Position numbers and translations under genes: made by a program. From a virus: a stretch of 64,000 bases of DNA. The stretch is taken from positions 1 to 64,000 of the IMG/VR virus record IMGVR_UViG_3300043438_000246; one strand, 5' to 3'. The notes under the pieces are model-generated. The model searched no databases, was not told where the DNA came from, and worked only from the letters and a program-made list of their open reading frames with translations. This document shows, one piece after another, positions 10,301 to 33,293 of the stretch. Position 1 is the stretch's first letter; every line of letters starts with the position of its first letter.

Positions 10301-10309
10301 TGGTATAAT
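10301..10309 (+). promoter_or_regulatory. Extended -10 promoter of fibre cassette A
   Basis: TGGTATAAT, followed by AAGAGGTGAT and the ATG at 10327; a leadered start. Confidence 0.5.
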
Positions 10310-10326
10310 TTTCAAGAGGTGATCTA

Positions 10327-11706
10327 ATGGCAACAGAGTCAATTGGTACGTTAATACCAACAGCAATTCCAGGGTATACTGATTCAGCAGATATCCAAGC
10401 AGCACTACGTGCATACCACTATGGTTCATATACTTATGACCCTGCTAATACATCACCAGCATCACTTGTAAGCCCCTCTATTGCAAAGACTATTTATGAT
10501 ATTGAAGCAGATATCACTGCTCTTGAAAATCGTCCTTCATCAGGTGGAGAAGTAGATGATACAGAGCCAGTACCAGCAGACTTTACACCACCAGAGATTC
10601 CAGATGGATTTATCTGGGTAGATTCAAATGGCACAGTAGGTGGACAACCAACATCTGCAACTTCAGTATTTACAAACTCTGCTCCAACAACATCTCTTAC
10701 AACTGGTGTTATTTGGGTAGATAAAGATCCAACTTCAATTACCGCAAATCCATTTATTCCAACCGCAATGATTAATGCAAAAGGTGATTTAATTGTTGGA
10801 AGCGCAGACGATGCAGCAATACGTTTAGCAGCAGCATCTACTAACGGATATGTTCTTTCTGTAAACTCAGCAACAACATCAGGACTTGAATGGATTGTAA
10901 ACGATCAAGGTGATATTACAGCGGTAACATCTGGAACTGGAATTACAGTTACAAATGGTACAGGTCCAATACCTTCGGTTGCAATCGATACAACCGTAAC
11001 AGCAGATTTAACAACGGCACAAACTTTAACAAACAAAACTTTGACAACTCCAATTATTAGTTCTATTTCTAATACTGGTGCTTTAACTTTACCAACAAGC
11101 ACAGACACTTTAGTGGGCCGTGCTACAACAGATACGTTAACAAACAAAACAGTTAACTTAACTAATAATACTTTGTCTGGTACTATTGCACAGTTTAATA
11201 CAGCACTTTCAGATGCTGATTTTGCAACATTGGCAGGCACTGAAACACTTACAAGTAAAACCTTAACCTCTCCTGCAATTAATACAGGAACAGTATCAAA
11301 CTCTATTTTGGTAGGACCAGAAGAAAGATGGAATATTGTTGCAGCAGCAGCAAGTTCAACAATAGCAATTGATGCTTTGACTTCTGGTGTTTGGTATTAT
11401 ACTTCAAATGCAACAGCAAATCATACTCTTAATTTTAGAGGTAGTTCTTCAACTTCAATGAACACAATTTTATCAATTGGTGATTCTGTTACTATTTTGT
11501 GGTTAAACACAAATGGTGGAACAGCATACTATCCAAATGTTTATCAAGTAGATGGAACTACATCTGGAGTTACAGTAAACTGGTCTGGTGGAACCGCACC
11601 AACTGCAGGCAATGCTTCAGGTATTGATGTATATTCTTTTACAATTGTAAAAACAGCAAATGCAACATTTAGAGTATTAGCAGCAGGGGCGGTAAAATAC
11701 GCATGA
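10327..11706 (+). CDS. Tail fibre protein, cassette A, 459 aa
   Basis: The N-terminal third is unique (DSADIQAALRAYHYGSYTYD...) and ends in an 'IWVDKDPTSITANPF' type linker. The middle holds repeats with DTLVGRATTDTLTNKT and AQTLTNKTL, a trimeric fibre-shaft signature. The C-terminus is a beta domain (WYYTSNATANHTLNF...). The region 10924-11300 is about 90% identical in protein to the fibre at 12807-13691, while the DNA differs at many third codon positions. First gene of cassette A. Confidence 0.75.
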   Translation: MATESIGTLIPTAIPGYTDSADIQAALRAYHYGSYTYDPANTSPASLVSPSIAKTIYDIEADITALENRPSSGGEVDDTEPVPADFTPPEIPDGFIWVDSNGTVGGQPTSATSVFTNSAPTTSLTTGVIWVDKDPTSITANPFIPTAMINAKGDLIVGSADDAAIRLAAASTNGYVLSVNSATTSGLEWIVNDQGDITAVTSGTGITVTNGTGPIPSVAIDTTVTADLTTAQTLTNKTLTTPIISSISNTGALTLPTSTDTLVGRATTDTLTNKTVNLTNNTLSGTIAQFNTALSDADFATLAGTETLTSKTLTSPAINTGTVSNSILVGPEERWNIVAAAASSTIAIDALTSGVWYYTSNATANHTLNFRGSSSTSMNTILSIGDSVTILWLNTNGGTAYYPNVYQVDGTTSGVTVNWSGGTAPTAGNASGIDVYSFTIVKTANATFRVLAAGAVKYA

Positions 11707-12539
11707 GTCCAACATTTTCACCTGTTGGTGGCGGAGGAATTGGTAAAGCAGCCATTACTTCACAATCTGGTGCGACAGTTGACACAACATCTCGCGCTGG
11801 AAAAACTATTTATAAGTTTACTGGTTCAGGTTCAATTACAGTTGGTACCGCTGGACTTGCAGAAGTTTTAGTTATTGGTGGAGGTGGAGGCGGAGCCTCC
11901 GCATCTAGCCCGTCAAACCTCAAGGGTGCAGGTGGAGGTGGAGCAGGTGGAGTTCTTTATGATACTGATAGATACTTGCCTGCTGGAACGTACACAGTAA
12001 CTATTGGCGCTGGTGGAGTTGGTGGATTTTATGTCCCTGGTGAAACAGCATATGGAAGCATTGGTAACAATGGACAAACAACGCAGATTGGCATTATTGC
12101 TATAGCCCCAGGCGGTGGTGGTGGTGGTGGACCAAGTCAGTTTGCTGAACCATCTGCTGGTGGCTCTGGTGGTGGCAGAGGTGGTCCTTATACTGCTAGC
12201 GGTGCAGTAGGAACAGCAGGGTTGGGAAATTCTGGAGGCAATAGTGTTGGCGCTAATAGTGGCGGAGGCGGCGGTGGTGCAGGCGCTGCTGGCACTAATG
12301 CTAGTGGTTCTACATCAGGTGCAGGCGGTGCAGGAAGAGCAATTTCAATTACTGGAACTAGCGTTACTTATGGTGGCGGTGGTGGTGGTTGTGGTGCTGG
12401 TACTGCTGTAGGTGGTTCAGGCGGTGGCGGTGCAACTGGTACTGCAGGTACTTCTAATACTGGTGGCGGTGCAGGGGCTGAACGCGCTTATTATGGACCA
12501 AGTGGTGGTTCTGGATACGTAGTGGTGGTGACTGGATAA
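11703..12539 (+). CDS. Glycine-rich adhesin-like protein, cassette A, 278 aa
   Basis: After a short beta segment the protein is dominated by Gly clusters (GGGGGGASAS, GGGGGGGPSQ, GGGGGG), with small residues between them and a final YVVVVTG. Such proteins resemble the poly-Gly II-helix adhesins at phage fibre tips (for example gp38 of T-even relatives) and bind receptors through the loops. ATGA overlap with the fibre gene upstream. Three relatives follow at 14279, 15535 and 18531. Confidence 0.65.
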   Translation: MSPTFSPVGGGGIGKAAITSQSGATVDTTSRAGKTIYKFTGSGSITVGTAGLAEVLVIGGGGGGASASSPSNLKGAGGGGAGGVLYDTDRYLPAGTYTVTIGAGGVGGFYVPGETAYGSIGNNGQTTQIGIIAIAPGGGGGGGPSQFAEPSAGGSGGGRGGPYTASGAVGTAGLGNSGGNSVGANSGGGGGGAGAAGTNASGSTSGAGGAGRAISITGTSVTYGGGGGGCGAGTAVGGSGGGGATGTAGTSNTGGGAGAERAYYGPSGGSGYVVVVTG

Positions 12540-12787
12540 TGGCACATTTTGCAAAAATAGAAGATGGATATGTTCGTCAAGTTATTGTTGTAAGAAATGA
12601 AGATGCTCCTGATGAAGCAACTGGTAAAGCATTTATTGCCTCAATTGGTTTAGATGGTGAATGGATTCAAACTTCTTACAATGGAAACTTTAGAAGTAGA
12701 TTTGCTGGCACTGGAATGATCTATGATCCAGTAGCAGATGAATTTAAATACTCAGATAATATAGTAGAGGAGATAGTAACAGAGTAA
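12539..12787 (+). CDS. MAHFA-family small protein, cassette A, 82 aa
   Basis: MAHFAKIEDGYVRQVIVVRN, then WIQTSYNGNFRSRFAGTGM and IYD. This short family occurs near tail fibres of many aquatic phages; relatives here are 16888-17232 and, more distantly, 19353-19559. A role in fibre assembly or as a virion cap is plausible but unproven. TAATG-coupled to the Gly-rich gene. Confidence 0.65.
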   Translation: MAHFAKIEDGYVRQVIVVRNEDAPDEATGKAFIASIGLDGEWIQTSYNGNFRSRFAGTGMIYDPVADEFKYSDNIVEEIVTE

Positions 12788-12791
12788 TTTC

Positions 12792-12800
12792 TGTTATAAT
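12792..12800 (+). promoter_or_regulatory. Extended -10 promoter of fibre cassette B
   Basis: TGTTATAAT with the ATG at 12807 only 6 nt downstream. The stretch CTGTTATAATACAATTATGG differs from the cassette C promoter (17482-17490) at two positions. Confidence 0.6.
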
Positions 12801-12806
12801 ACAATT

Positions 12807-13691
12807 ATGGCAACTATTAACACTACCGATCCAAAACCAGGGTTTGTCTATGACCTTGATACAGACACATGGTTTCCACTTCTAGGACTTGCTACACAGT
12901 CACTAGATGGATTAACAGATGTTATTATAACTACCCCGTCAACAAACCAAGTTCTTGCATATAATGGAACTAACTGGGTAAACTCCTCTGAGGCTGGAGA
13001 TGTTTCAGCGGTAACTTCAGGAACAGGTATCACAGTAACCAACGGTACTGGACCAATTCCCTCTATCGCAATTGACACTACAGTAACAGCAGATCTTACT
13101 ACTGCACAAACTTTAACAAATAAAACTTTAACAACTCCAGTTATTTCTTCAATTAGCAATACTGGAACAGTTACCTTGCCAACTGCTACTGATACTTTGG
13201 TCGGTAGAGCCACAACAGATACTTTAACAAATAAAACAGTAAATCTTACATCTAATACACTATCAGGAACTATTGCTCAGTTTAATACCGCTCTTTCGGA
13301 TGCTGATTTTGCAACTTTGGCTGGTACTGAAACTTTAACAAATAAAACATTAACTGCTCCTGTTATTTCATATTCAGTAAATGCTGTTACTTCTTCAACA
13401 TATACAACTGTAGCAACTGATGCTGCAGCAATTGTAACAATGAATAATGGATCTGCTAATACATTTAGCATTCCAACAAATGCAAGCGTTCCATATGCAG
13501 TTGGTTCATCAATAACCATTATTCAAATTGGTGCGGGGCAGACAACAATTAATGCTGTAACTTCTGGAACTACTACTATTGCTTCTGTTGGCGCAACACC
13601 TGCTGCCCCAGCATTAAGAGCACAATATTCTTCCGCTACATGCATTAAGGTTGCAACTGATACCTGGTATGTAGTGGGTGATGTTGCGTGA
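12807..13691 (+). CDS. Tail fibre protein, cassette B, 294 aa
   Basis: N-terminus GFVYDLDTDTWFPLLGLATQ, followed by the same repeat block as the cassette A fibre (AVTSGTGITVTNGTG, AQTLTNKTLTTP, DTLVGRATTDTLTNKT) and a C-terminal beta domain with VTSGTTTIASVGATPAAP. The two blocks align nearly residue by residue. A leaderless start is likely. Confidence 0.75.
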   Translation: MATINTTDPKPGFVYDLDTDTWFPLLGLATQSLDGLTDVIITTPSTNQVLAYNGTNWVNSSEAGDVSAVTSGTGITVTNGTGPIPSIAIDTTVTADLTTAQTLTNKTLTTPVISSISNTGTVTLPTATDTLVGRATTDTLTNKTVNLTSNTLSGTIAQFNTALSDADFATLAGTETLTNKTLTAPVISYSVNAVTSSTYTTVATDAAAIVTMNNGSANTFSIPTNASVPYAVGSSITIIQIGAGQTTINAVTSGTTTIASVGATPAAPALRAQYSSATCIKVATDTWYVVGDVA

Positions 13692-14269
13692 CAAAACTTT
13701 TCCCTGGCGTTGTAGCATCTGGAATTAGTGGACATCTCTGGGCACCTTCTGGTGCTTATGAGCAGATTGCTTCTACAACTGTAGGTGCTGGTGGAGTCTC
13801 TACCGTTACTTTTAATGGTATCCCGCAGACTTATCAAAATTTACAAATCAGAGCACTAGCAAGAACAACAGTTACTGCTGACTTTGACGACTTTTTGGCA
13901 ATACGTTTCAATGGTGATTCCTCAAGTAATTACGTTCATCACGCTACATATGGTCTCGGCTCTTCTGCAGGTTCTGGAGTGGACAGGCCAATCACGTTTG
14001 CTATTGCACAACGAGCATCAACTAACAAAAATACAACAGGGATATTTGGAGCAATTGTATTAGACATTCTTGATTACGCTAATACAAATAAAAATAAAGT
14101 TACAAGAAATATAGGCGGTTATGATAGAGGTAATGGAGGCCAGGTGTACCTTGACAGTAATTTATGGCTATCTACATCTGAAATATATTCAATAACTATA
14201 ACACCTTCAGCAGGAGCATCTATGTCATTTACAGAGTACTCACAATTCGCCCTATACGGAACTAAATAA
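13688..14269 (+). CDS. Beta-sandwich tail fibre accessory protein, 193 aa
   Basis: Starts at GTG 13688, overlapping the TGA of the fibre gene. 'FNGIPQTYQNLQIRALART' and the closing 'EYSQFALYGTK' mark a jelly-roll unit common in fibre-associated proteins of aquatic phages. The same unit forms the N-terminal halves of the next two proteins (14279 and 15535), where a Gly-rich domain is fused behind it. Confidence 0.65.
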   Translation: MTKLFPGVVASGISGHLWAPSGAYEQIASTTVGAGGVSTVTFNGIPQTYQNLQIRALARTTVTADFDDFLAIRFNGDSSSNYVHHATYGLGSSAGSGVDRPITFAIAQRASTNKNTTGIFGAIVLDILDYANTNKNKVTRNIGGYDRGNGGQVYLDSNLWLSTSEIYSITITPSAGASMSFTEYSQFALYGTK

Positions 14270-14278
14270 AGGCTAAAA

Positions 14279-15535
14279 ATGTCTACTACATACACTCCAA
14301 TTGCTACACAGACACTGGTTTCTACAGCATCTTCTGTTACTTTTTCTAATATATCTGGTAGTTATACGGACTTGGTATTGGTAATCACTGCAACTGGTTC
14401 AACAAGTGCTGATTTAATTTTATCTTTTAACAGCGATACAACTGTTGCTAATTATTCAACTACTTCACTTAACGGAAGTGGAAGTTCTGCTGCATCAAAT
14501 CGCACTACTGTATTGCCTGGTATATCTCTTACAAGTAATTCATACTTAAGAAGCACTGAAGCAATGCAATGGAACATAAGCATACAAAATTATTCAAATG
14601 CAACTACATACAAGACTGTTTTAAGCAGAACTGGAAATGTTCCATTAGGTAGAGCCGACCTTGCTACTGGTTCCTGGCGTGGAACACCTGCTGCTATTAC
14701 TTCACTTACCTTAACACCTTCTCCAGGAACGTTGGCAATTGGATCAACTTTTAATTTGTACGGAATTGCTGCTGCAACTGCGCCTGTTGCTAAAGCAACT
14801 GGTGGAACAATAACTACAACAAGTGGTTATACGGTTCATACATTTACAAGCACAGGAACATTTACTCCTTCTCAAAATCTACAGGTTGAGTATCTTGTAG
14901 TAGCAGGAGGTGGCGGTGGTTACTTTAATGGTGGATCTGCTGGCGGTGCTGGTGGATTTAGAACTAACGTAGGCGGAGCACTGCTCTCTTGTTCATCAGG
15001 AACCGCATACACAACAACCGTTGGCGCTGGTGCTGGCACAAACGCAGATGGAAGCCCTTCTTCTTTTAATGGAATTAACGCAAGCGGTGGAGGCGGAGCA
15101 AGCGGTGGCGGATTACTAGGTGGTCCTGGTGGTTCTGGAGCAGGTGGCCGCACTAACAGCAGCGGCTTTGGAGGTGCTGGAAATATTGGTGGATACTTCC
15201 CAGTAGAAGGCTACGCTGGTGGTACAGCAGGTGTTGATCAAGGTGGCGGTGGAGGCGGTGGCGCTGGTGGAGTTGGTAATAATGGCCAAGACGGTACTGG
15301 CGGTGCTGGTGGTATTGGACGTGTATCTTTGATATCTGGCTCATCTGTTTACTATGCAGGCGGTGGTGGTGGAAATAACGCAGCAGGTGGTACAGGTGGT
15401 GGTGGTGCAGGACGAGTTGGTACTGGTGCTGGGTATGATGGTACTGCAAACACTGGTGGCGGTGGTGGTGGAAGCCGTCAAGGTTCAGGCGGTAATGGTG
15501 GTTCAGGAATCGTTATAGTTAGGTATAGAAACTAA
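14279..15535 (+). CDS. Jelly-roll plus glycine-rich fibre protein, 418 aa
   Basis: Residues 1-165 form a jelly-roll unit (TFSNISGSYTDLVLVITATG ... FNLYGIA), followed by a short linker and a Gly-rich C-terminal domain (residues ~200-418) ending SGIVIVRYRN. The architecture is that of 13688-14269 joined to a poly-Gly adhesin. Ten nt separate it from the upstream stop; AAAGG precedes the ATG. Confidence 0.65.
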   Translation: MSTTYTPIATQTLVSTASSVTFSNISGSYTDLVLVITATGSTSADLILSFNSDTTVANYSTTSLNGSGSSAASNRTTVLPGISLTSNSYLRSTEAMQWNISIQNYSNATTYKTVLSRTGNVPLGRADLATGSWRGTPAAITSLTLTPSPGTLAIGSTFNLYGIAAATAPVAKATGGTITTTSGYTVHTFTSTGTFTPSQNLQVEYLVVAGGGGGYFNGGSAGGAGGFRTNVGGALLSCSSGTAYTTTVGAGAGTNADGSPSSFNGINASGGGGASGGGLLGGPGGSGAGGRTNSSGFGGAGNIGGYFPVEGYAGGTAGVDQGGGGGGGAGGVGNNGQDGTGGAGGIGRVSLISGSSVYYAGGGGGNNAAGGTGGGGAGRVGTGAGYDGTANTGGGGGGSRQGSGGNGGSGIVIVRYRN

Positions 15536-16869
15536 TGGCCGATACATACGTACTCTTACAAAAAATAACTATAAGCGCATCTTCTGTTGCGTCAATAACT
15601 TTTTCAAACATTCCACAAACTGGTTATACAGATTTGGTAATAAAAGGTAGTAGCAGAACTACTGGTGATACTTTAATTGGTGGTTTTTCTTTTAATGGTG
15701 TAACAACCAATCTGTCTGCGAGACAAATTTATGGAACTGGTAGTGCTGCTGGATCTGTAGGTAGTGCAATAAATACTAATTCTTATGGTGTGGTAGGTGC
15801 CGTTTCTTACACCGCCAATACATTTGGCAATTTTGAAGCATATTTTTCTAATTATACTTCTTCTGCTTACAAGATGTTTAATGTTGATGGTGTAGTTGAA
15901 AATAATGGTACAGAATCATACAGTTGTTTAGTTTCTGGATTATGGTCTAACACTTCTGCAATTACTTCTATAACATTTACACCAACTGATGGAAACCTTA
16001 TTCAGTACTCAACTTTCTCCCTATACGGTGTATCAAAATTCGGTACAACACCAACAGAATCCCCATATGCAATAGGTGGAGATATTATTGAAACTGATGG
16101 AACTTATTGGTATCATGCTTTCTTGTCATCAGCAGCATTTATACCTACCAAGGATTTGAGTTGTGATGTACTTGCTGTTGGTGGAGGTTCATCTTCGGGA
16201 CAAAGTGCTGCTGGTGGTGGAGGTGCTGGAGCCGTAGTTTATGCAGCATCAACTTCACTTACAACAACAGGTTATACAGTTATAGTTGGTGCTGGAGGCC
16301 CCACATACACGGTTGGCGGTAATACAGCCTTTAGTTCTCTTGTAACTGCAGCAGGTGGTGGTCTTGGTGGTGGAGAAAATACTGCTGCACCGTCTAATAC
16401 AAATGGCGGTTCTGGTGGTGGAGGTGGCGGTAGTGCTTCTGCTGCTACTAAAGCGGGTTCTGCTGCTGGTTCAGGTAGTTCTGGTGGAACTGTCTATGCT
16501 TCTGCTGGTGGTCTAGGAAACCAAAATTACAACGGTGGCGGAGGCGGAGGAGCGGGAGCCGTAGGTGGCTCGGCAACTACAAGCGTTCCTGGTAGTGGTG
16601 GTGCAGGTATAAATACCTATTCTACTTGGTTATCTGTAACAGGACTAGGCGTTAGTGGCTATATTGCAGGTGGTGGTGGAGGTTGTACGTTTAATGGAAC
16701 TCCTTCTAGTGGTGGTGCAGGAGGTGGCGGTGCAGGTGGTCGTTATTCGCCAGCACAAGCACAGACTGCAGGAACTGCTAACACAGGCGGTGGCGGCGGT
16801 GGTGGAAACGGTGTAGGTAATGGTGCCGCTGGCGGTTCAGGTCTAGTAATAGTTAGGTATTTAATTTAA
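15535..16869 (+). CDS. Jelly-roll plus glycine-rich fibre protein, 444 aa
   Basis: Same architecture as 14279-15535: jelly-roll (SSVASITFSNIPQTGYTDLV ... YSTFSLYGVSKFG), linker, Gly-rich C-terminus ending SGLVIVRYLI. Shared closing motif 'SG-[IL]-V-I-V-R-Y'. TAATG-coupled. These two adjacent genes look like diverged tandem copies, possibly offering two receptor tips. Confidence 0.65.
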   Translation: MADTYVLLQKITISASSVASITFSNIPQTGYTDLVIKGSSRTTGDTLIGGFSFNGVTTNLSARQIYGTGSAAGSVGSAINTNSYGVVGAVSYTANTFGNFEAYFSNYTSSAYKMFNVDGVVENNGTESYSCLVSGLWSNTSAITSITFTPTDGNLIQYSTFSLYGVSKFGTTPTESPYAIGGDIIETDGTYWYHAFLSSAAFIPTKDLSCDVLAVGGGSSSGQSAAGGGGAGAVVYAASTSLTTTGYTVIVGAGGPTYTVGGNTAFSSLVTAAGGGLGGGENTAAPSNTNGGSGGGGGGSASAATKAGSAAGSGSSGGTVYASAGGLGNQNYNGGGGGGAGAVGGSATTSVPGSGGAGINTYSTWLSVTGLGVSGYIAGGGGGCTFNGTPSSGGAGGGGAGGRYSPAQAQTAGTANTGGGGGGGNGVGNGAAGGSGLVIVRYLI

Positions 16870-16887
16870 ATGAAAGGTAAAAAATAA

Positions 16888-17232
16888 ATGGCACATTTTG
16901 CAGAGATAGATGAAAACAATATAGTTAAGCAAGTATTAGTTGTTCCTAATTCAGTAGAACATTATGGAGAACTTTATTTATCAAGAGATCTTAATCTTGG
17001 CGGTAGATGGGTACAAACATCTTATAATGGTAATATTAGAAAAAATTTTGCAGGTATTGGATATACATATGATGAAATCAGGGATGCTTTTATAACGCCA
17101 AAACCATATTTATCTTGGGTATTAAATGAAGAAACCTGTCTTTGGGAGGCACCAGTTGCTTATCCAACTGATGGTATCATATATGTGTGGGATGAAGAAA
17201 CTATTGATTGGAAGGCTGTTGTAAATGACTGA
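16888..17232 (+). CDS. MAHFA-family protein, cassette B, 114 aa
   Basis: MAHFAEIDENNIVKQVLVVP, then GRWVQTSYNGNIRKNFAGIG and YTYDEIRDAF. Close to the 12539-12787 protein, with an extra 30-residue Trp-rich tail (SWVLNEETCLWEAP). AAAGGTAAAAA lies before the ATG. Confidence 0.65.
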   Translation: MAHFAEIDENNIVKQVLVVPNSVEHYGELYLSRDLNLGGRWVQTSYNGNIRKNFAGIGYTYDEIRDAFITPKPYLSWVLNEETCLWEAPVAYPTDGIIYVWDEETIDWKAVVND

Positions 17233-17458
17233 TACATTAAAAAAACTAGTAGTTGATGTTGCAAAAGGAACTCAGGAATATATTGACCTGACCCCTGAAG
17301 AAATCGCACAACGTGAAACAGATGCAGCCGCATTTGCAGTAGCAGAGGCAGAGCGAATAGCAGCAGAAGAAGCAAGCGCCGAGGCCAAGGCCAGCGGTAT
17401 TGCAAAATTGCTTGCTCTTGGTCTTACTGAAGAAGAAGCCCAAGAACTAACAAAATAA
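17225..17458 (+). CDS. Short coiled-coil protein, 77 aa
   Basis: 'YIDLTPEEIAQRETDAAAFA' followed by an Ala/Glu-rich helix and GLTEEEAQELTK. The 'LTPEEIAQRE' start followed by a long Ala/Glu helix is common in small proteins encoded behind phage tail fibres, sometimes annotated as fibre assembly chaperones. Overlaps the upstream gene by 8 nt. Last gene of cassette B. Confidence 0.6.
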   Translation: MTDTLKKLVVDVAKGTQEYIDLTPEEIAQRETDAAAFAVAEAERIAAEEASAEAKASGIAKLLALGLTEEEAQELTK

Positions 17459-17481
17459 GGAGGAATAGCAGACAATAAATC

Positions 17482-17490
17482 TGCTATAAT
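17482..17490 (+). promoter_or_regulatory. Extended -10 promoter of fibre cassette C
   Basis: TGCTATAAT with the ATG at 17497, 6 nt downstream; nearly the same sequence as the cassette B promoter. Confidence 0.6.
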
Positions 17491-17496
17491 ACAATC

Positions 17497-18210
17497 ATGG
17501 CAATTACATTTGATTATTCAGGCAAACCAACATACATGTTCCAGGCTGGAGCAACTTCTACTGATGGTGTTTGGTATGCCGTTGGTGCCAAGATTGATAC
17601 CGCCGCAGGATACGAATGGGCTGGCGCACAAACATTTTTAAATACTGTAACTACTGATGCTACTGTTATTTTAAGAGATGGTTTTAATAATTTTCTAAAC
17701 CCTGCTGCTCGTGATGCTGCTTTAACATCTCCTGCTCAAGGTACTCTTGCTTTTATAAGACAAGATTCTGGTGGATCTCCTCTTAATCAAATTCAATTTT
17801 ATAATGGATCCGCTTGGGTTGCAAATGATGGAGACATCAATGGTGTAACTGCTGGAACTGGTCTTTCAGGCGGCGGTACATCAGGAACAGTTACTCTTTC
17901 TGTTGATACAACAGTAGTAGCAACAACAAGCAATACTCTTACAATGAGTGGTAAGACACTTTCTGCTGCAACACTAACTGGAACACTTACTGCAGCATCT
18001 ACATCTGGAACAAATGGACAATATTTGCAAACAACTGGTACTGGTGTCCAATGGGCGACGGTAACAGGATATTCAGCACCAACACTTGGATCAACAGCAT
18101 TAACATCTGGTGCAACAATTACAACAATTTCTGGATTAACAGATATTGTTTTAAATGGTCCAGGAAGTATTAAAGATGAACTAACGCTCCTATTAATGGG
18201 CGCACTCTAA
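17497..18210 (+). CDS. Tail fibre protein, cassette C, 237 aa
   Basis: The N-terminal part (DYSGKPTYMFQAGATSTDGV) is unlike the other fibres. The middle has 'TAGTGLSGGGTSGTVTLSVD' and 'NTLTMSGKTLSAATLTGTLT', a variant of the TLTNKT shaft repeat. The C-terminus ends ELTLLLMGAL. Leaderless start. First gene of cassette C. Confidence 0.7.
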   Translation: MAITFDYSGKPTYMFQAGATSTDGVWYAVGAKIDTAAGYEWAGAQTFLNTVTTDATVILRDGFNNFLNPAARDAALTSPAQGTLAFIRQDSGGSPLNQIQFYNGSAWVANDGDINGVTAGTGLSGGGTSGTVTLSVDTTVVATTSNTLTMSGKTLSAATLTGTLTAASTSGTNGQYLQTTGTGVQWATVTGYSAPTLGSTALTSGATITTISGLTDIVLNGPGSIKDELTLLLMGAL

Positions 18211-18228
18211 CCTGAAAGGTAGTAACTA

Positions 18229-18531
18229 ATGGCTACAGCAACAAAGGTGCTCGCTAGAACAGCAGCAGCCACATCAAGCACAACACTATATACAGTACCT
18301 AGTGCAACAACTACAGTAGTAACTAATATTGTAGTAACTAACTCAGCAGCATCTGCTGCTACGTTTACTCTTACGCTTAACAGCGTTGATATATTTACTA
18401 CAGCAGCAATTGCCGCTAACTCAACAGCAATGTTTGACTTAAAACAGGTAATGGCAACAACTGAAATTATTGCTGGCTTTGCCAGCGCAGTAACAGTCAA
18501 GTTTCACATCAGCGGAGTGGAGATTTCCTAA
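18229..18531 (+). CDS. Small beta-rich virion protein, 100 aa
   Basis: 'STTLYTVPSATTTVVTNIVV', then strands rich in Thr/Ser/Ala and a closing VTVKFHISGVEIS. 'LYTVP-x-x-T-T' opens a family of small phage decoration or fibre proteins. GAAAGG precedes the ATG; TAATG-coupled to the next gene. Confidence 0.6.
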   Translation: MATATKVLARTAAATSSTTLYTVPSATTTVVTNIVVTNSAASAATFTLTLNSVDIFTTAAIAANSTAMFDLKQVMATTEIIAGFASAVTVKFHISGVEIS

Positions 18532-19343
18532 TGGCATCAACAGTATTTCCTGCCCCTTCAACGGCTTCAACACCACCTCTTACAATTGGTGTTCCTATTG
18601 GCTTAACACTTCGTAATACTTACACTTCAAGCGCAAGCAGTTTAACTTATCCTGTAACACAGGTATATGCAATTGTTATTGGCGGTGGAGGAGCAGGTGG
18701 TACTGGTAGTAATGCTGGTGGTGGTGGTGGTGGTGGTGCGGTAGTTCAAGGCTGGATTGCACCACCAACAACAGTTACCGTTGGCGCAAGTAATGGTTTT
18801 AGTCAGTTCGGAGATTTACTTGCACCTGCAGGTGGTTTTGGAAATTCATCTAATGGACTTTCTGGTAAAAGAGGTTCAATGGGAAGCGGAAGTGGTGGTG
18901 GTGGCTCAGATGCAGATGCTACTTATAATAACGTAGCAAGCGCACCTCAAAATAATACTTTCTTAAATTCTTTTGGTGGGTATGGCGGAGCATTTGGAAA
19001 CTTTGTTCAAAATTCTGCTGGTGGTGCTGGAACATCAGGAGGCGGTGCTGCTGCTGTATGGGGTGGTACAGCAGGTCCTGGTGGTAATGGAGTTTATACA
19101 GGCGGTGGCGGTGGCGGTGGTGCAAACGGTGGAGCAGCATCTGCGGGTGGTTCAGGAAAAGGTGGAATAGGTGGCGCTAGCGCTAGCGCTGGTGGCGGTG
19201 GAGCAGGTTACATTGCTGCTGGCGGAGCAGCATCTGGCGGCACTGGCGGTACTGGCGGCAATGGCGGTGGCGGTGGCGGTGGCTGCGGTCAAGGTGGAAC
19301 AGCAGGCGCTGGCGGCGCTGGTGTTGTTTATGTTTACTACTAA
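18531..19343 (+). CDS. Glycine-rich adhesin-like protein, cassette C, 270 aa
   Basis: A short N-terminal beta segment, then Gly clusters (GGGGAGGTGS, GGGGGGGAVV, GGGGGGGANG, GGGGGGGCGQ) through to GAGVVYVYY. Same type as 11703-12539. The repetitive GGTGGC DNA is a likely site for replication slippage and length variation. Confidence 0.65.
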   Translation: MASTVFPAPSTASTPPLTIGVPIGLTLRNTYTSSASSLTYPVTQVYAIVIGGGGAGGTGSNAGGGGGGGAVVQGWIAPPTTVTVGASNGFSQFGDLLAPAGGFGNSSNGLSGKRGSMGSGSGGGGSDADATYNNVASAPQNNTFLNSFGGYGGAFGNFVQNSAGGAGTSGGGAAAVWGGTAGPGGNGVYTGGGGGGGANGGAASAGGSGKGGIGGASASAGGGGAGYIAAGGAASGGTGGTGGNGGGGGGGCGQGGTAGAGGAGVVYVYY

Positions 19344-19352
19344 GGAGAAATA

Positions 19353-19559
19353 ATGAAAACTTTTGCAATAATTGCAGATAATCGTGTAATAAATATAGTT
19401 GTTGCCGATAATAAAGAAACTGCTGAAGCGGTTTCTTTTGAAGGTACTATTGCTGTTGAATGTTCAGTCAATGATTTAGTTAATGAGACATGGACTTATG
19501 ACGGAACTAAATTAGTTCCTCCAACAATACAGGAACCAACTGATGACCAAAGCATGTGA
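19353..19559 (+). CDS. Short protein of the MAHFA type, cassette C, 68 aa
   Basis: MKTFAIIADNRVINIVVADN, then a 'WTYDGTKLVPP' end. It lacks the QTSYNGN core but keeps the FA-x-I-x-x-x-x-V-x-x-[IV]-[IV]-V opening and its place at the end of a cassette. AGGAG precedes the ATG. Confidence 0.6.
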   Translation: MKTFAIIADNRVINIVVADNKETAEAVSFEGTIAVECSVNDLVNETWTYDGTKLVPPTIQEPTDDQSM

Positions 19560-19611
19560 CCTAGCCAATGCTAGTACAGGTTTATTGTATTAATAATTAA
19601 ATAAAAAAATA

Positions 19612-19646
19612 ACCCCCAAAAGCCAAAAGCCAATGGGGGTATTTTT
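19612..19646. terminator. Bidirectional terminator between convergent genes
   Basis: ACCCCC (19612-19617) pairs with GGGGGT (19635-19640) around a 17-nt loop. TTTTTT follows on the plus strand (19642-19647) and a T-rich tract on the minus strand. It lies exactly between the fibre cassettes and the leftward lysin gene. Confidence 0.75.
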
Positions 19647-19652
19647 TATCCC

Positions 19653-20219
19653 TTAAATCAAATGATTAGGAAATTTCTTTAACCATTTATTCGTGGCACC
19701 GTTTTTTATAGATGACCATGAACTCCAGTCCTTACCGCCTTTTGTCATGTGAAACACGATTTGGGCATTTTTGACTGGGCTAAAGAGTTCAGCATTTAAA
19801 TCAAGATTGAATTTGTCTTTTCTATCTGGACCTAAATTACCGATCATGTTGATCTGGAAGATTCCATATGAGGAGTCTCCCGTCTCAGCATTACCATTGA
19901 ATGCAAATGGGCGACCATTAGATTCTGCCTTGGCAACAGCCCAAGCAGTCTTAAGACCTACCCCTTTAAACCCAACAGCCTTCAGTAATTCAACCAACTG
20001 GATGTCAGTCAAACTTGTAGCATCCGCATACTTTGCAAGTACTACATCAGTAGTAGGCTTAGAAAGCAAAAAAGCCGCTTTGTCGGCGGCAGGTGCAATC
20101 TGAGCGGTATTACTTAGTAAATTGTTCTTGGTAGCATAAGCACCATTCAAACCATTATTTAATAATGTAAGAGTGAGCAATGTTACAAGAACCCCCGATA
20201 GTATTTTGTTGTCTCTCAA
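19653..20219 (-). CDS. Secreted lysozyme / lytic transglycosylase, probable endolysin
   Basis: 188 aa. Residues 1-30 look like a signal peptide or signal anchor (ILSGVLVTLLTLTLL, then NGAYA). The catalytic-type core has E99 in AVAKAESNGRP and 'SSYGIFQIN' (116-124), the hallmark of SLT/goose-lysozyme-like enzymes that cut the glycan strand of peptidoglycan; the C-terminal KGGKDWSSW closes the fold. The start is TTG, 6 nt after AGGAGGAAAAAC begins, since no ATG lies near the strong ribosome-binding site. It is the only leftward gene in the late region. Export could be Sec-dependent rather than holin-dependent. Confidence 0.75.
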   Translation of the reverse strand: MRDNKILSGVLVTLLTLTLLNNGLNGAYATKNNLLSNTAQIAPAADKAAFLLSKPTTDVVLAKYADATSLTDIQLVELLKAVGFKGVGLKTAWAVAKAESNGRPFAFNGNAETGDSSYGIFQINMIGNLGPDRKDKFNLDLNAELFSPVKNAQIVFHMTKGGKDWSSWSSIKNGATNKWLKKFPNHLI

Positions 20220-29675: not shown

Positions 29676-32600
29676 ATGTCTCAGCCGTCCAATTTATATG
29701 CAGAAAAGGTTTATTCAGAGCACCCAACTATCTTGTGGGCATTGGATGACCAGGCTGACTATATTTCTTTAATTACAGAAAACCAAAGAGATATAAGAAA
29801 TGGCTGGACCATAACTAATGCATCCGTAACCTCTGGTTCTGGAGTAACTGGAGAACCTTTTCCAGATAGTTATACAACACTTGTTGAGGGTGATGTTCCA
29901 AGTGGCGCAACAGACACAGTTACACTAATAAGTCCAGACTTAGTTAATTTCCAAGATTTAAATAGTACCCTTGGATCTTTTTCTATTGGTTCATATTTTT
30001 ATTCAAATAGTGCATACCTACAATCTGTAGAAATAGGATTTAGATATATAGATACAACTACTTCTTTGCCAATAGAAGAATTAGATTTTTTTACAACTTC
30101 CGTTTTTCAGTCATGGAGTTTTGTATCTGGAACATTTGATATAGTAGACGAGAACACTGACTTTCAGGTTGTTATAAAATTAAACTATGCAAGTGGTGGC
30201 AGTGCTGGAGACTACGATTTCTACATTAATGGAATTACAGCAGGTCAATGGTCTGAAGAATTTAGTACAACTTCTTTAGGTATTACACCAGTATCTTTTC
30301 CAACAAACATTGCACTTTCTGCAACCCAAGCAGTACAGGCAGATCCATATGGTCTTGCTGGAGAAGTTGGATACTATCTTGTAGATAACAATGCTTTGAT
30401 TGCAAGAAACAGCGGAGTACCAATGGTATTTGGTGCAAGCAATATTACAAGAATGACTCCTAACTCTAATAACAAACCTTCTTTGATTGTTCCAGGAAAA
30501 GGTTTCTTAAATAAGAGTGGCCAGTATAAAGAATATACGGTTGAGTTCTGGACAAGAATTAACTCTAATGCATATGAGCCTAAAAAAATATTTGGTCCAA
30601 TTTCATCTAATGACGGACTATATGTTGAGTCTGGATTTTTAACACTTGTAATAGGCACCGAGTTTTCTTCTCACTTCGTTGGTGAGTGGTTTAGACCAAT
30701 GCTTATTCATGTTAGAGTAATTAGAAATAATGCAACGGTATTGTTAAATGGAGAAGAGATTATTAATCTTCCTATTAATACAGATACGCTAGATCTTCCA
30801 GAAATTCTAGATGAGTTTGGTGATAGCCAAGACTGGCTAGGTTTTTATGCTTACACAGATGTTACTCCAGTTGAAGTAGACTGTGTTGCAATTTATCCAT
30901 ATTCCGTTGCAATTAATATTGCAAAGCGTAGATGGGTATATGGACAGGGTGTGCTTTCTCCAGAAGGTATTAACTCAGCATATGGTGGAACAGCAGCATT
31001 TATAGATTATCCTTTTGCTGACTATACCGCAAACTATAACTATCCAGATTTTGCTCAATGGGAGCAGGGAGCATTTGATAATCTTACAACAACATCAAAC
31101 TCTTTAACTACCCCACAATATTCTCTTCCAGAAATAAGCCTTGACTCAAAAACCCTTACACAACTGTATGCAGATAACAAAGAAATACAAGATCCTTTAG
31201 ACTATAACTTTATAACATTTAGACCAAATAATTCCTGGAACTCAGATAGATGCTACTTCAACTTCCCCAACTTTAATATATTAAATGACTCCATACATAC
31301 AATCTATGGTGTATTTTCATCAGAAGATCTTTTATCAGAGGAAACACTTTTTAAGATTTATAATCCAACTACTGGAAATTATTTTAGTATTAGAAAAGAT
31401 TTAGATGAAATCCACTATTATCTTTACTTCAATGGCACAGAAGAAGAAATCTTTACAAGCGACATAATTGAGTCTGGATATAAATTTGCAGCAGGTATTG
31501 AAATTCAAACGCTTGTTGCCACTTTTGGTGGAAATGTTGCCACATTCTTTGGAAATCAAAATGGATTAAAAATGTATGTTGGTGGTGAAGAAGATGCATC
31601 TTTACAATTTACTGGAAAAATATACTCAGCAGGCCTTGCAACAAACTATAATGCGGTAGAGTTAACGAGTCACTTTGAAGATAATGGAACAGCAATCGTT
31701 GATAGTTATTTGGCAACAGGATCTCAGGAATCAGAAAACGCTATAGCACTTCTTGAGCATACTGCCAGTTATACTCTTTTACCCCTACAGGCATATGGAT
31801 CTTATTTTCTTGATATTGGTGTTTCTGGTTACTGGGAAGATTACATGCCTCTTTCATATTTTGCACAATTTGTAACTAACGACATTGGCAATAAATTTTA
31901 TGATCTAGACTTTTTGCAGTTTAATATAGGATATCCATCACCTACAAAGTTAGCGGAATTTGAAACAACCAGTTCTTGGACATATGAAGAACTAAAAGAA
32001 GAGTACTCTCATCCAGTACAAAGAACCTATTTACAATTAGATAATAACCTATTTACTGGCTGGAATAACTATGAGGACATGGCTCAAAGAGCAGAAAAGT
32101 ATTATGAGTATGATACATCAGATGCATCTATTAGAAGTTATATAACTTTTCAGTATATTGAAACAGGTGCCAATGCGCCACAAGAAGATTTTACAACCGT
32201 GCTTCCAGCAAGAGAGGGAGCAATTATTGATATGGACGAATACCCAGATTGGCTATCAACAAAGTTTGAAGTAGTAGACAATACTTTAATTTATCCAACA
32301 AAGACTGTTGACTTTAATGATCTTGCTTTGGTATATCATCTTGATTTTAATATTCGTGGCATCTTAAAGAAGCCTATTCAGTTAAGAAGGCTAGAACTTG
32401 CATCCCAAGCATTTAATGACAACTCGTTTAATCCAGTCGGCACTAGATTTGGTATCAACATGTTCCCATATACAAGGTCTGGACTATACTATGACTATAA
32501 GGCAAAAAACCCATTTAGCATTTATAAAGGAAGCACTCCATATTTATACCTAAATAGAAGTTCTGGCGTAGAGGTGCGTGGAAGTTTTGACCCATTCGTA

Positions 32601-33293
32601 AGTCGTGGAATGTCAATTCCAGTTAACCAAAATATTGCAGATAATTATAGAATAAGTGCTACGCAAGTTTGGATGCGCTATGACCAAGATGCATTCCCTA
32701 TTACTCCAACCGAAATCTTTGAGATAAATTACAAGGCAGACACAATTAAGTTTTACATGGTTGCAGATAATCCAGAAGGTACAAGAGCAAGAATATATGC
32801 TATGAGCCAAACAACTAATAGTTTATACAATGGCATATCTTATTTCCTAAATGGATCAATCGTAAGAGAGCCAGTATTAACAATTAAAGAATGGGGTGTT
32901 CTAGGAATTGCATTTGCAAGTGCTTTAAGTTTTGACCTATACCTTGGCTCTATTAATTTGACTGGTCCTCTTGTATTTAATAATATTGCCTTCTACCAAG
33001 CAAATAATCTACAGCAGGTTCAGAGTAATCTTCTTAGACCGTGGCTTAAGGTTCAAACTGACGGTATTACAAGTTTTGACTGGGAATTCTGGCTTAATAG
33101 TTTTAACTGGGAAGGAGTTCTTGTTATTTCTGCCTCAGATCTATATGGAGTTTTACCTTCTGACGTTTATAAGACATATATTGGAACAAATAAGATTATT
33201 ATTGATGATGAAGAGGGCATGGTGTTCGATGCAGAGAAACTTAAGGTCTATAATGACACAACATGGACTATTAGACTCGGAACCCCAGTCTAA
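29676..33293 (+). CDS. Large minor tail protein with LamG-like domains, 1205 aa
   Basis: Opens 'NLYAEKVYSEHPTILWALDD', a phrase found in minor tail proteins of actinophages. A concanavalin/LamG-like domain spans about residues 285-415 (YTVEFWTRINSN, GEEIINLPINT, DWLGFYAY, AIYPYSV), and further lectin-like segments follow (for example WMRYDQDAFP and 'FYMVADNPEGTRARIYA'). Probably binds cell-surface sugars at the tail tip. It sits alone between the reductase and the head genes, away from the other tail-tip genes at 50625-58236. Confidence 0.75.
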   Translation: MSQPSNLYAEKVYSEHPTILWALDDQADYISLITENQRDIRNGWTITNASVTSGSGVTGEPFPDSYTTLVEGDVPSGATDTVTLISPDLVNFQDLNSTLGSFSIGSYFYSNSAYLQSVEIGFRYIDTTTSLPIEELDFFTTSVFQSWSFVSGTFDIVDENTDFQVVIKLNYASGGSAGDYDFYINGITAGQWSEEFSTTSLGITPVSFPTNIALSATQAVQADPYGLAGEVGYYLVDNNALIARNSGVPMVFGASNITRMTPNSNNKPSLIVPGKGFLNKSGQYKEYTVEFWTRINSNAYEPKKIFGPISSNDGLYVESGFLTLVIGTEFSSHFVGEWFRPMLIHVRVIRNNATVLLNGEEIINLPINTDTLDLPEILDEFGDSQDWLGFYAYTDVTPVEVDCVAIYPYSVAINIAKRRWVYGQGVLSPEGINSAYGGTAAFIDYPFADYTANYNYPDFAQWEQGAFDNLTTTSNSLTTPQYSLPEISLDSKTLTQLYADNKEIQDPLDYNFITFRPNNSWNSDRCYFNFPNFNILNDSIHTIYGVFSSEDLLSEETLFKIYNPTTGNYFSIRKDLDEIHYYLYFNGTEEEIFTSDIIESGYKFAAGIEIQTLVATFGGNVATFFGNQNGLKMYVGGEEDASLQFTGKIYSAGLATNYNAVELTSHFEDNGTAIVDSYLATGSQESENAIALLEHTASYTLLPLQAYGSYFLDIGVSGYWEDYMPLSYFAQFVTNDIGNKFYDLDFLQFNIGYPSPTKLAEFETTSSWTYEELKEEYSHPVQRTYLQLDNNLFTGWNNYEDMAQRAEKYYEYDTSDASIRSYITFQYIETGANAPQEDFTTVLPAREGAIIDMDEYPDWLSTKFEVVDNTLIYPTKTVDFNDLALVYHLDFNIRGILKKPIQLRRLELASQAFNDNSFNPVGTRFGINMFPYTRSGLYYDYKAKNPFSIYKGSTPYLYLNRSSGVEVRGSFDPFVSRGMSIPVNQNIADNYRISATQVWMRYDQDAFPITPTEIFEINYKADTIKFYMVADNPEGTRARIYAMSQTTNSLYNGISYFLNGSIVREPVLTIKEWGVLGIAFASALSFDLYLGSINLTGPLVFNNIAFYQANNLQQVQSNLLRPWLKVQTDGITSFDWEFWLNSFNWEGVLVISASDLYGVLPSDVYKTYIGTNKIIIDDEEGMVFDAEKLKVYNDTTWTIRLGTPV

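Follow-up and report, generated by a model that had tools for sequence, protein, structure and literature searches.

The window analysed here is a stretch of 64,000 nucleotides at the start of virus record IMGVR_UViG_3300043438_000246 (bases 1-64000 of 68,050), with a G+C content of 38%. Its genes include those for a tape-measure protein, a portal, a head maturation protease and a DnaB-like helicase, and on sequence grounds it probably derives from an uncultured, tailed freshwater phage with an Actinomycetota host. The portal is closest to those of Streptomyces phages (44%), which makes such an actinobacterial host likely. No Rfam family or tRNA was found in the window. Three consecutive promoter-led cassettes, A, B and C, occupy positions 10301 to 19559 with the following features, all on the plus strand:

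10301-12787, plus strand: cassette A (promoter, A1, A2, A3)
10301..10309, plus strand: slot A promoter TGGTATAAT of the extended -10 type; a leader and a Shine-Dalgarno sequence precede the ATG
10327..11706, plus strand: A1 fibre; slot-A head at aa 1-66, TNKT-repeat stem at about 186-319, tip of family 0 (phrog_5906)
10909..11208, plus strand: part of the A1 stem matching B1 at 12996-13295 (76% over 300 nt)
11703..12539, plus strand: A2 Gly-rich adhesin (Gly_rich_2, E 5.7e-13)
12539..12787, plus strand: A3, small protein of the MAHFA type (phrog_7759), proposed as a chaperone of the adhesin
12776..12797, plus strand: A/B junction inverted repeat GTAACAGA-n6-TCTGTTAT, 7/8 pairs; it covers the stop codon of A3 and the extended -10 of B
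12792-17458, plus strand: cassette B (promoter, B1-B6)
12792..12800, plus strand: slot B promoter TGTTATAAT; the ATG follows after 6 nt, and the mRNA is predicted to be leaderless
12807..13691, plus strand: B1 fibre; slot-B head at aa 1-50, TNKT stem, tip of family 2 (phrog_21978 / phrog_8780)
13688..14269, plus strand: B2 beta-sandwich-type protein, first of a paralogous triplet
14279..15535, plus strand: B3, B2-like N-terminal domain and Gly_rich_2
15535..16869, plus strand: B4, B2-like N-terminal domain and Gly_rich_2; its model resembles the Pam3 fibre
16888..17232, plus strand: B5 MAHFA-type small protein, proposed adhesin chaperone (phrog_7759); its model resembles Pam3 gp25
17225..17458, plus strand: B6 small protein, accompanying B2-type modules in relatives
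17465..17487, plus strand: B/C junction inverted repeat ATAGCAGA-n7-TCTGCTAT, 8/8 pairs, overlapping the C extended -10
17482-19559, plus strand: cassette C (promoter, C1-C4)
17482..17490, plus strand: slot C promoter TGCTATAAT; the ATG follows after 6 nt, and the mRNA is predicted to be leaderless
17497..18210, plus strand: C1 fibre; slot-C head at aa 1-105, tip of family 1
18229..18531, plus strand: C2 small protein (phrog_1276), of a kind found directly behind tip-1 fibres
18531..19343, plus strand: C3 Gly-rich adhesin, about one third Gly
19353..19559, plus strand: C4, small relative of the MAHFA-type proteins (phrog_14370)

A sequence-only reading of this DNA had placed three tail-fibre cassettes of common plan at these coordinates, where we recovered the corresponding open reading frames and promoters. 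The distribution of Gly-rich adhesin-like genes that it described, one, two and one, is likewise confirmed (A2; B3 and B4; C3), and the MAHFA-type protein that it saw at the cassette ends is present as A3 and B5, C4 qualifying loosely in that its family is weakly matched by MAHFA proteins. Against a curated cut-off of 24.3 bits, the Gly_rich_2 domain (PF21722) scores 49.8 in A2, 65 in B3 and 68.3 in B4; C3 is Gly-rich by composition and has no match in PHROGs. Sequence searches of the PDB gave non-specific matches only for A1 and A2, and NCBIfam yielded nothing for eight of the array proteins. B2 had to be discarded as a candidate second fibre, since it is paralogous to the N-terminal halves of the B3 and B4 proteins. 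One related contig (L084:14791-19561) encodes nine consecutive B2-type proteins, equivalent to three triplets.

A structural parallel is provided by cyanophage Pam3 with its fibre gp24 and chaperone gp25 (PDB 7ypx, 7yfw; PMC9608196), where, as in the array, a small gene, in Pam3 that of the chaperone, comes after a Gly-rich distal domain. In Pam3 this chaperone wraps around the Gly-rich distal end of the fibre and is absent from virions (PMC9608196). The predicted structure of B4 (pLDDT 83), compared with the Pam3 type of fibre, in which the distal domain is TNF-like with glycine-rich layers, matched the Pam3 fibre 7ypx_A (Foldseek E 1.8e-3, prob 1.00, TM 0.26/0.43), and a B4 profile finds the Pam3 fibre structures with E 0.0075. 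The best PDB match of the MAHFA model (pLDDT 95) was Pam3 gp25, a weak one (Foldseek E 0.29, prob 0.87, TM 0.40), with Mu Tfa 5yvq_B at E 6.8. The model contains a single helix, at residues 21-34, and lacks the C-terminal helical trimerisation domain of the Pam3 gp25 / Tfa type. We also considered whether B6 might supply the helical half of a Tfa chaperone split over two genes, and rejected the idea, as B6 matched no solved chaperone. Together the models suggest, through weak matches, that the Gly-rich proteins may be adhesins like Pam3 gp24 and the MAHFA protein a chaperone like gp25; these roles are proposed mainly because the gene order matches that of Pam3. The two systems differ in that Pam3 has a single one-protein fibre with its own helical head, whereas in the array the fibre and adhesin are separate genes and several slots are present; in addition, gp25 has a C-terminal helical domain which the MAHFA protein does not.

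Three scans of viral contigs yielded 169 loci, which were merged into 150 sequences including the window. With profiles of the fibre heads we identified 139 complete fibre genes (head A, 45; head B, 41; head C, 53), and about 50 viral contigs support a model in which each head marks a distinct slot. Across these relatives the heads are slot-specific. Profile comparison did not connect head A with either of the other two; heads B and C share only a weak motif of about 30 residues (hhalign 85%); a recent duplication of heads is thereby ruled out. The stems behave differently from the heads, since those of A1 and B1 have 367 nt in common at 78% (blastn).

The C-terminal ends of the fibres, when grouped by single-linkage clustering of their last 130 residues, fall into three main tip families, each of which is present in all three slots. 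Tip 0 occurs in slots A, B and C 30, 28 and 6 times, tip 1 2, 7 and 44 times, and tip 2 6, 5 and 3 times. The genes behind the fibre follow the tip: after near-duplicates were removed, the one correction for relatedness applied in this count, C2 lies directly behind the fibre in 28/28 cases with tip 1 and in 0/55 with tips 0 or 2, and within slot B alone the corresponding figures are 3/3 and 0/21. The exchange is also seen in a sibling phage (L005), which has a U protein 97% identical to that of the window. Heads and stems of the two phages agree slot for slot and the tip families are exchanged: the A1 of L005 combines the head and stem of the window's A1 (94% over aa 1-319) with a tip of the window's B1 family, and its B1 retains the B head with a tip of the window's A1 family. 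The swapped tips are only about 63-67% identical between the two, implying that the window and L005 were not direct exchange partners. Across relatives the array thus joins a conserved anchor to an exchangeable, presumed receptor-binding end.

An extended -10 promoter, TGNTATAAT, stands at the start of each cassette, and the B and C promoters are nearly identical through to the ATG (20/22 bases), both as previously reported from the sequence. The motif occurs 19 times in the window against 5.2 +/- 2.0 expected (0/100 shuffles reach 19), with 18/19 copies on the coding (plus) strand and nearly all just upstream of genes. Hence it does not define a cassette, and a cassette-specific promoter can be dismissed: the cassettes use a general phage promoter, which serves transcription units across the window. 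Several copies lie 6-9 nt before an ATG and would give leaderless mRNAs. Among the relatives' loci and the window, the promoter is found near the start of 137/139 fibre genes, and in slot A it is kept with a spacing of 17-24 nt in 45/45 genes. In most relatives the B promoter instead has a Shine-Dalgarno leader, so that the likeness between the window's B and C promoters does not simply record a duplication; it reflects the phage-wide promoter type together with an inverted repeat at the cassette junctions.

Heads are fixed, tips are shuffled, cargo is linked to the tip and each unit carries a promoter motif. The array is real and modular, and is best read as a set of fixed slots with exchangeable tips; its function in host recognition we infer from homology. 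Specifically, we propose, with a probability of about three in four, a three-slot receptor-binding array whose slot heads stay fixed and whose tips and adhesins are exchanged between slots and between phages. Each slot would constitute one transcription unit encoding a fibre made of a slot head, a repeat stem and an exchangeable tip, with the slot-specific head predicted to dock at its own place on the virion. The genes behind the fibre would supply tip-matched adhesins, presumed to bind receptors, and a small putative chaperone. Recombination, probably easiest in the common stem, would then swap the tip with its adhesins between slots or phages, leaving the heads in place.

The variation in cassette number bears on an alternative, namely that the three units are parts of one composite or branched fibre needed by the virion, so that the common plan is structural and does not reflect a set of separate options for receptor binding. 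Thirty-one contigs, some of them near-identical to each other, cover the whole interval from U through E1; 23 of these have the order A-B-C and 8 have the A head only. Cassette number and content therefore vary among relatives, in agreement with the modular array postulated from the sequence. More precisely, there is not one fixed set, whereas the complete multi-unit arrays all read A-B-C. This constant order would fit a composite fibre, and all three units may well sit on one virion; the eight arrays with a single head, the extra promoter-led units without a recognized head in several contigs and one partial contig with the order A-C-B speak against it. We regard the composite fibre as unlikely, and note that it can hold together with the slot model.

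A second alternative, in which a single ancestral cassette was duplicated in tandem and the copies then diverged, corresponds to the origin suggested by the sequence-only reading. The same gene plan in each unit, the similar A1 and B1 stems, the near-identical B and C promoters and the weak motif common to the B and C heads would all fit such a history. Growth by simple cassette duplication is nevertheless contradicted by the heads, which differ from each other, are slot-specific across relatives and in the case of A are unrelated to the others, and by the tips and cargo, which follow neither slot nor position. As the B/C motif is weak, and as what the cassettes have in common is the A1/B1 stem and the tip families, exchange into distinct slots is favoured over duplication of whole cassettes, which we consider improbable. 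A switching system, in which an invertible segment or a diversity-generating retroelement selects the fibre that is made, could be suspected from the several alternative tips side by side and a neighbouring gene with an Mtd_N domain, but is rejected as very improbable, given that the inverted repeats of the array are imperfect, scattered, chance-like matches, that the 68-kb record, which may be incomplete, contains no reverse transcriptase or serine recombinase, and that the cassettes all have the same orientation in the contigs mapped.

Returning to the three-slot array, its junctions show a distinctive feature. Many B and C promoters take part in an inverted repeat: the extended -10 (TCTGNTAT) supplies its right arm, and the left arm is located just upstream, often within the last codons of the preceding gene. 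A variable base covaries with its partner (G-C 18, T-A 10, A-T 5 at sites with at least 7/8 pairs). In a test that permuted the right arms and ignored kinship among contigs, 31 of 54 distinct junctions reach 7/8 pairs against a permuted mean of 18.6 (0/5000 reach 31), as do 14 of 37 distinct arm pairs against 8.3 (2/5000 reach 14); for slot C junctions alone the excess of pairing is not significant (330/5000 permutations). Among the 18 promoters of the window, only those of B and C attain this level. Considered as an intrinsic terminator, the repeat is without a T tract, and our guess is that it insulates between units. The fuller proposal, that three docking sites draw on one pool of tips, adhesins and chaperones and that the junction repeat, with its compensatory changes, insulates or regulates the units, is offered tentatively.

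The ends of cassettes in relatives accommodate further genes. These include modification-type enzymes (L013:9637-10473, L012:9367-10956, L023:5249-6664 and L016:3131-4108), namely a sulfotransferase, a tryptophan halogenase, a carbamoyltransferase and a PF11397 GlcNAc transferase, which could modify the fibre or the host surface. In the slot-A region of one contig (L029:3072-9218) two Phe/Pro-rich repeat (FFPPFF) proteins occur with three 2OG-Fe(II) oxygenases, and hydroxylation of these repeats is possible. A short PPPTT-repeat protein (L016:2196-2426), encoded a few genes upstream of a GlcNAc transferase behind a slot-A fibre, may be glycosylated and take the place of the Gly-rich adhesin. 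An IP-(D/E)-WYK-type motif is shared by proteins of about 220-250 aa that recur at cassette ends (L007:16199-16945; L014, L019, L023, L029, L062); the one scanned gave no Pfam match. In the window itself, the end of the array is adjoined on the opposite strand by a gene for an SLT_3 lysozyme-like protein (19653-20219, minus strand), with a GC-rich inverted repeat and T run between them (about 19610-19646), terminator-like by eye yet unflagged by the scan. Elsewhere in the window we noted a protein with an Mtd_N domain (PF18454; 26336-27463) and, adjoining the portal, a 1205-aa protein (29676-33293) with no Pfam match and no relative in the phage collection, in which protein U has no relative either.

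Several known systems share elements with the array. Salmonella phage S16 has a fibre, gp37, and a separate Gly-rich adhesin, gp38 (cited in PMC9608196). The S16 adhesin gene comes after the fibre gene, as it does in the array. We found no sequence match between S16 gp37-gp38 and the array, and S16-like phages carry one fibre-adhesin pair where the array has several units. Gene content is shared with the cultured 'Ca. Planktophila' phage E7 (record OX376640, described as LanE43-AprE7; PMC10202952), which has homologues of C2, the B2 triplet, B6, and the MAHFA protein, and also two Gly-rich proteins, in one block. Judged by its content, this block appears to be the variable island that its authors tie to host recognition (PMC10202952). 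E7 is a different, 39-kb phage, and in the stretch examined the three heads, homologues of U and E1 and the TGNTATAAT motif are all absent. Klebsiella phage receptor-binding proteins (PMC8262889) are comparable in having a conserved virion-side part and an exchangeable receptor-side part, as are Alteromonas phages A5/V22 (PMC10579305), in which the anchor is conserved and the exchangeable tip travels with a chaperone. The array differs from these modular proteins in having three different anchors per genome, one tip pool and a promoter per unit. It is a variant of known modular receptor-binding systems.

If our proposal is correct, the host range of freshwater phages would evolve through the insertion of exchangeable adhesin modules into several slots of one virion, the slots themselves staying fixed. 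A single phage would be able to try several receptors at once, and tips could be traded with relatives with no need to rebuild the attachment sites. It would also furnish a sequence rule applicable across metagenomes, in which the head denotes the slot and the tip denotes the cargo, and, for phrog_7759, the widespread MAHFA family that lacks annotation, a candidate function as adhesin chaperone.
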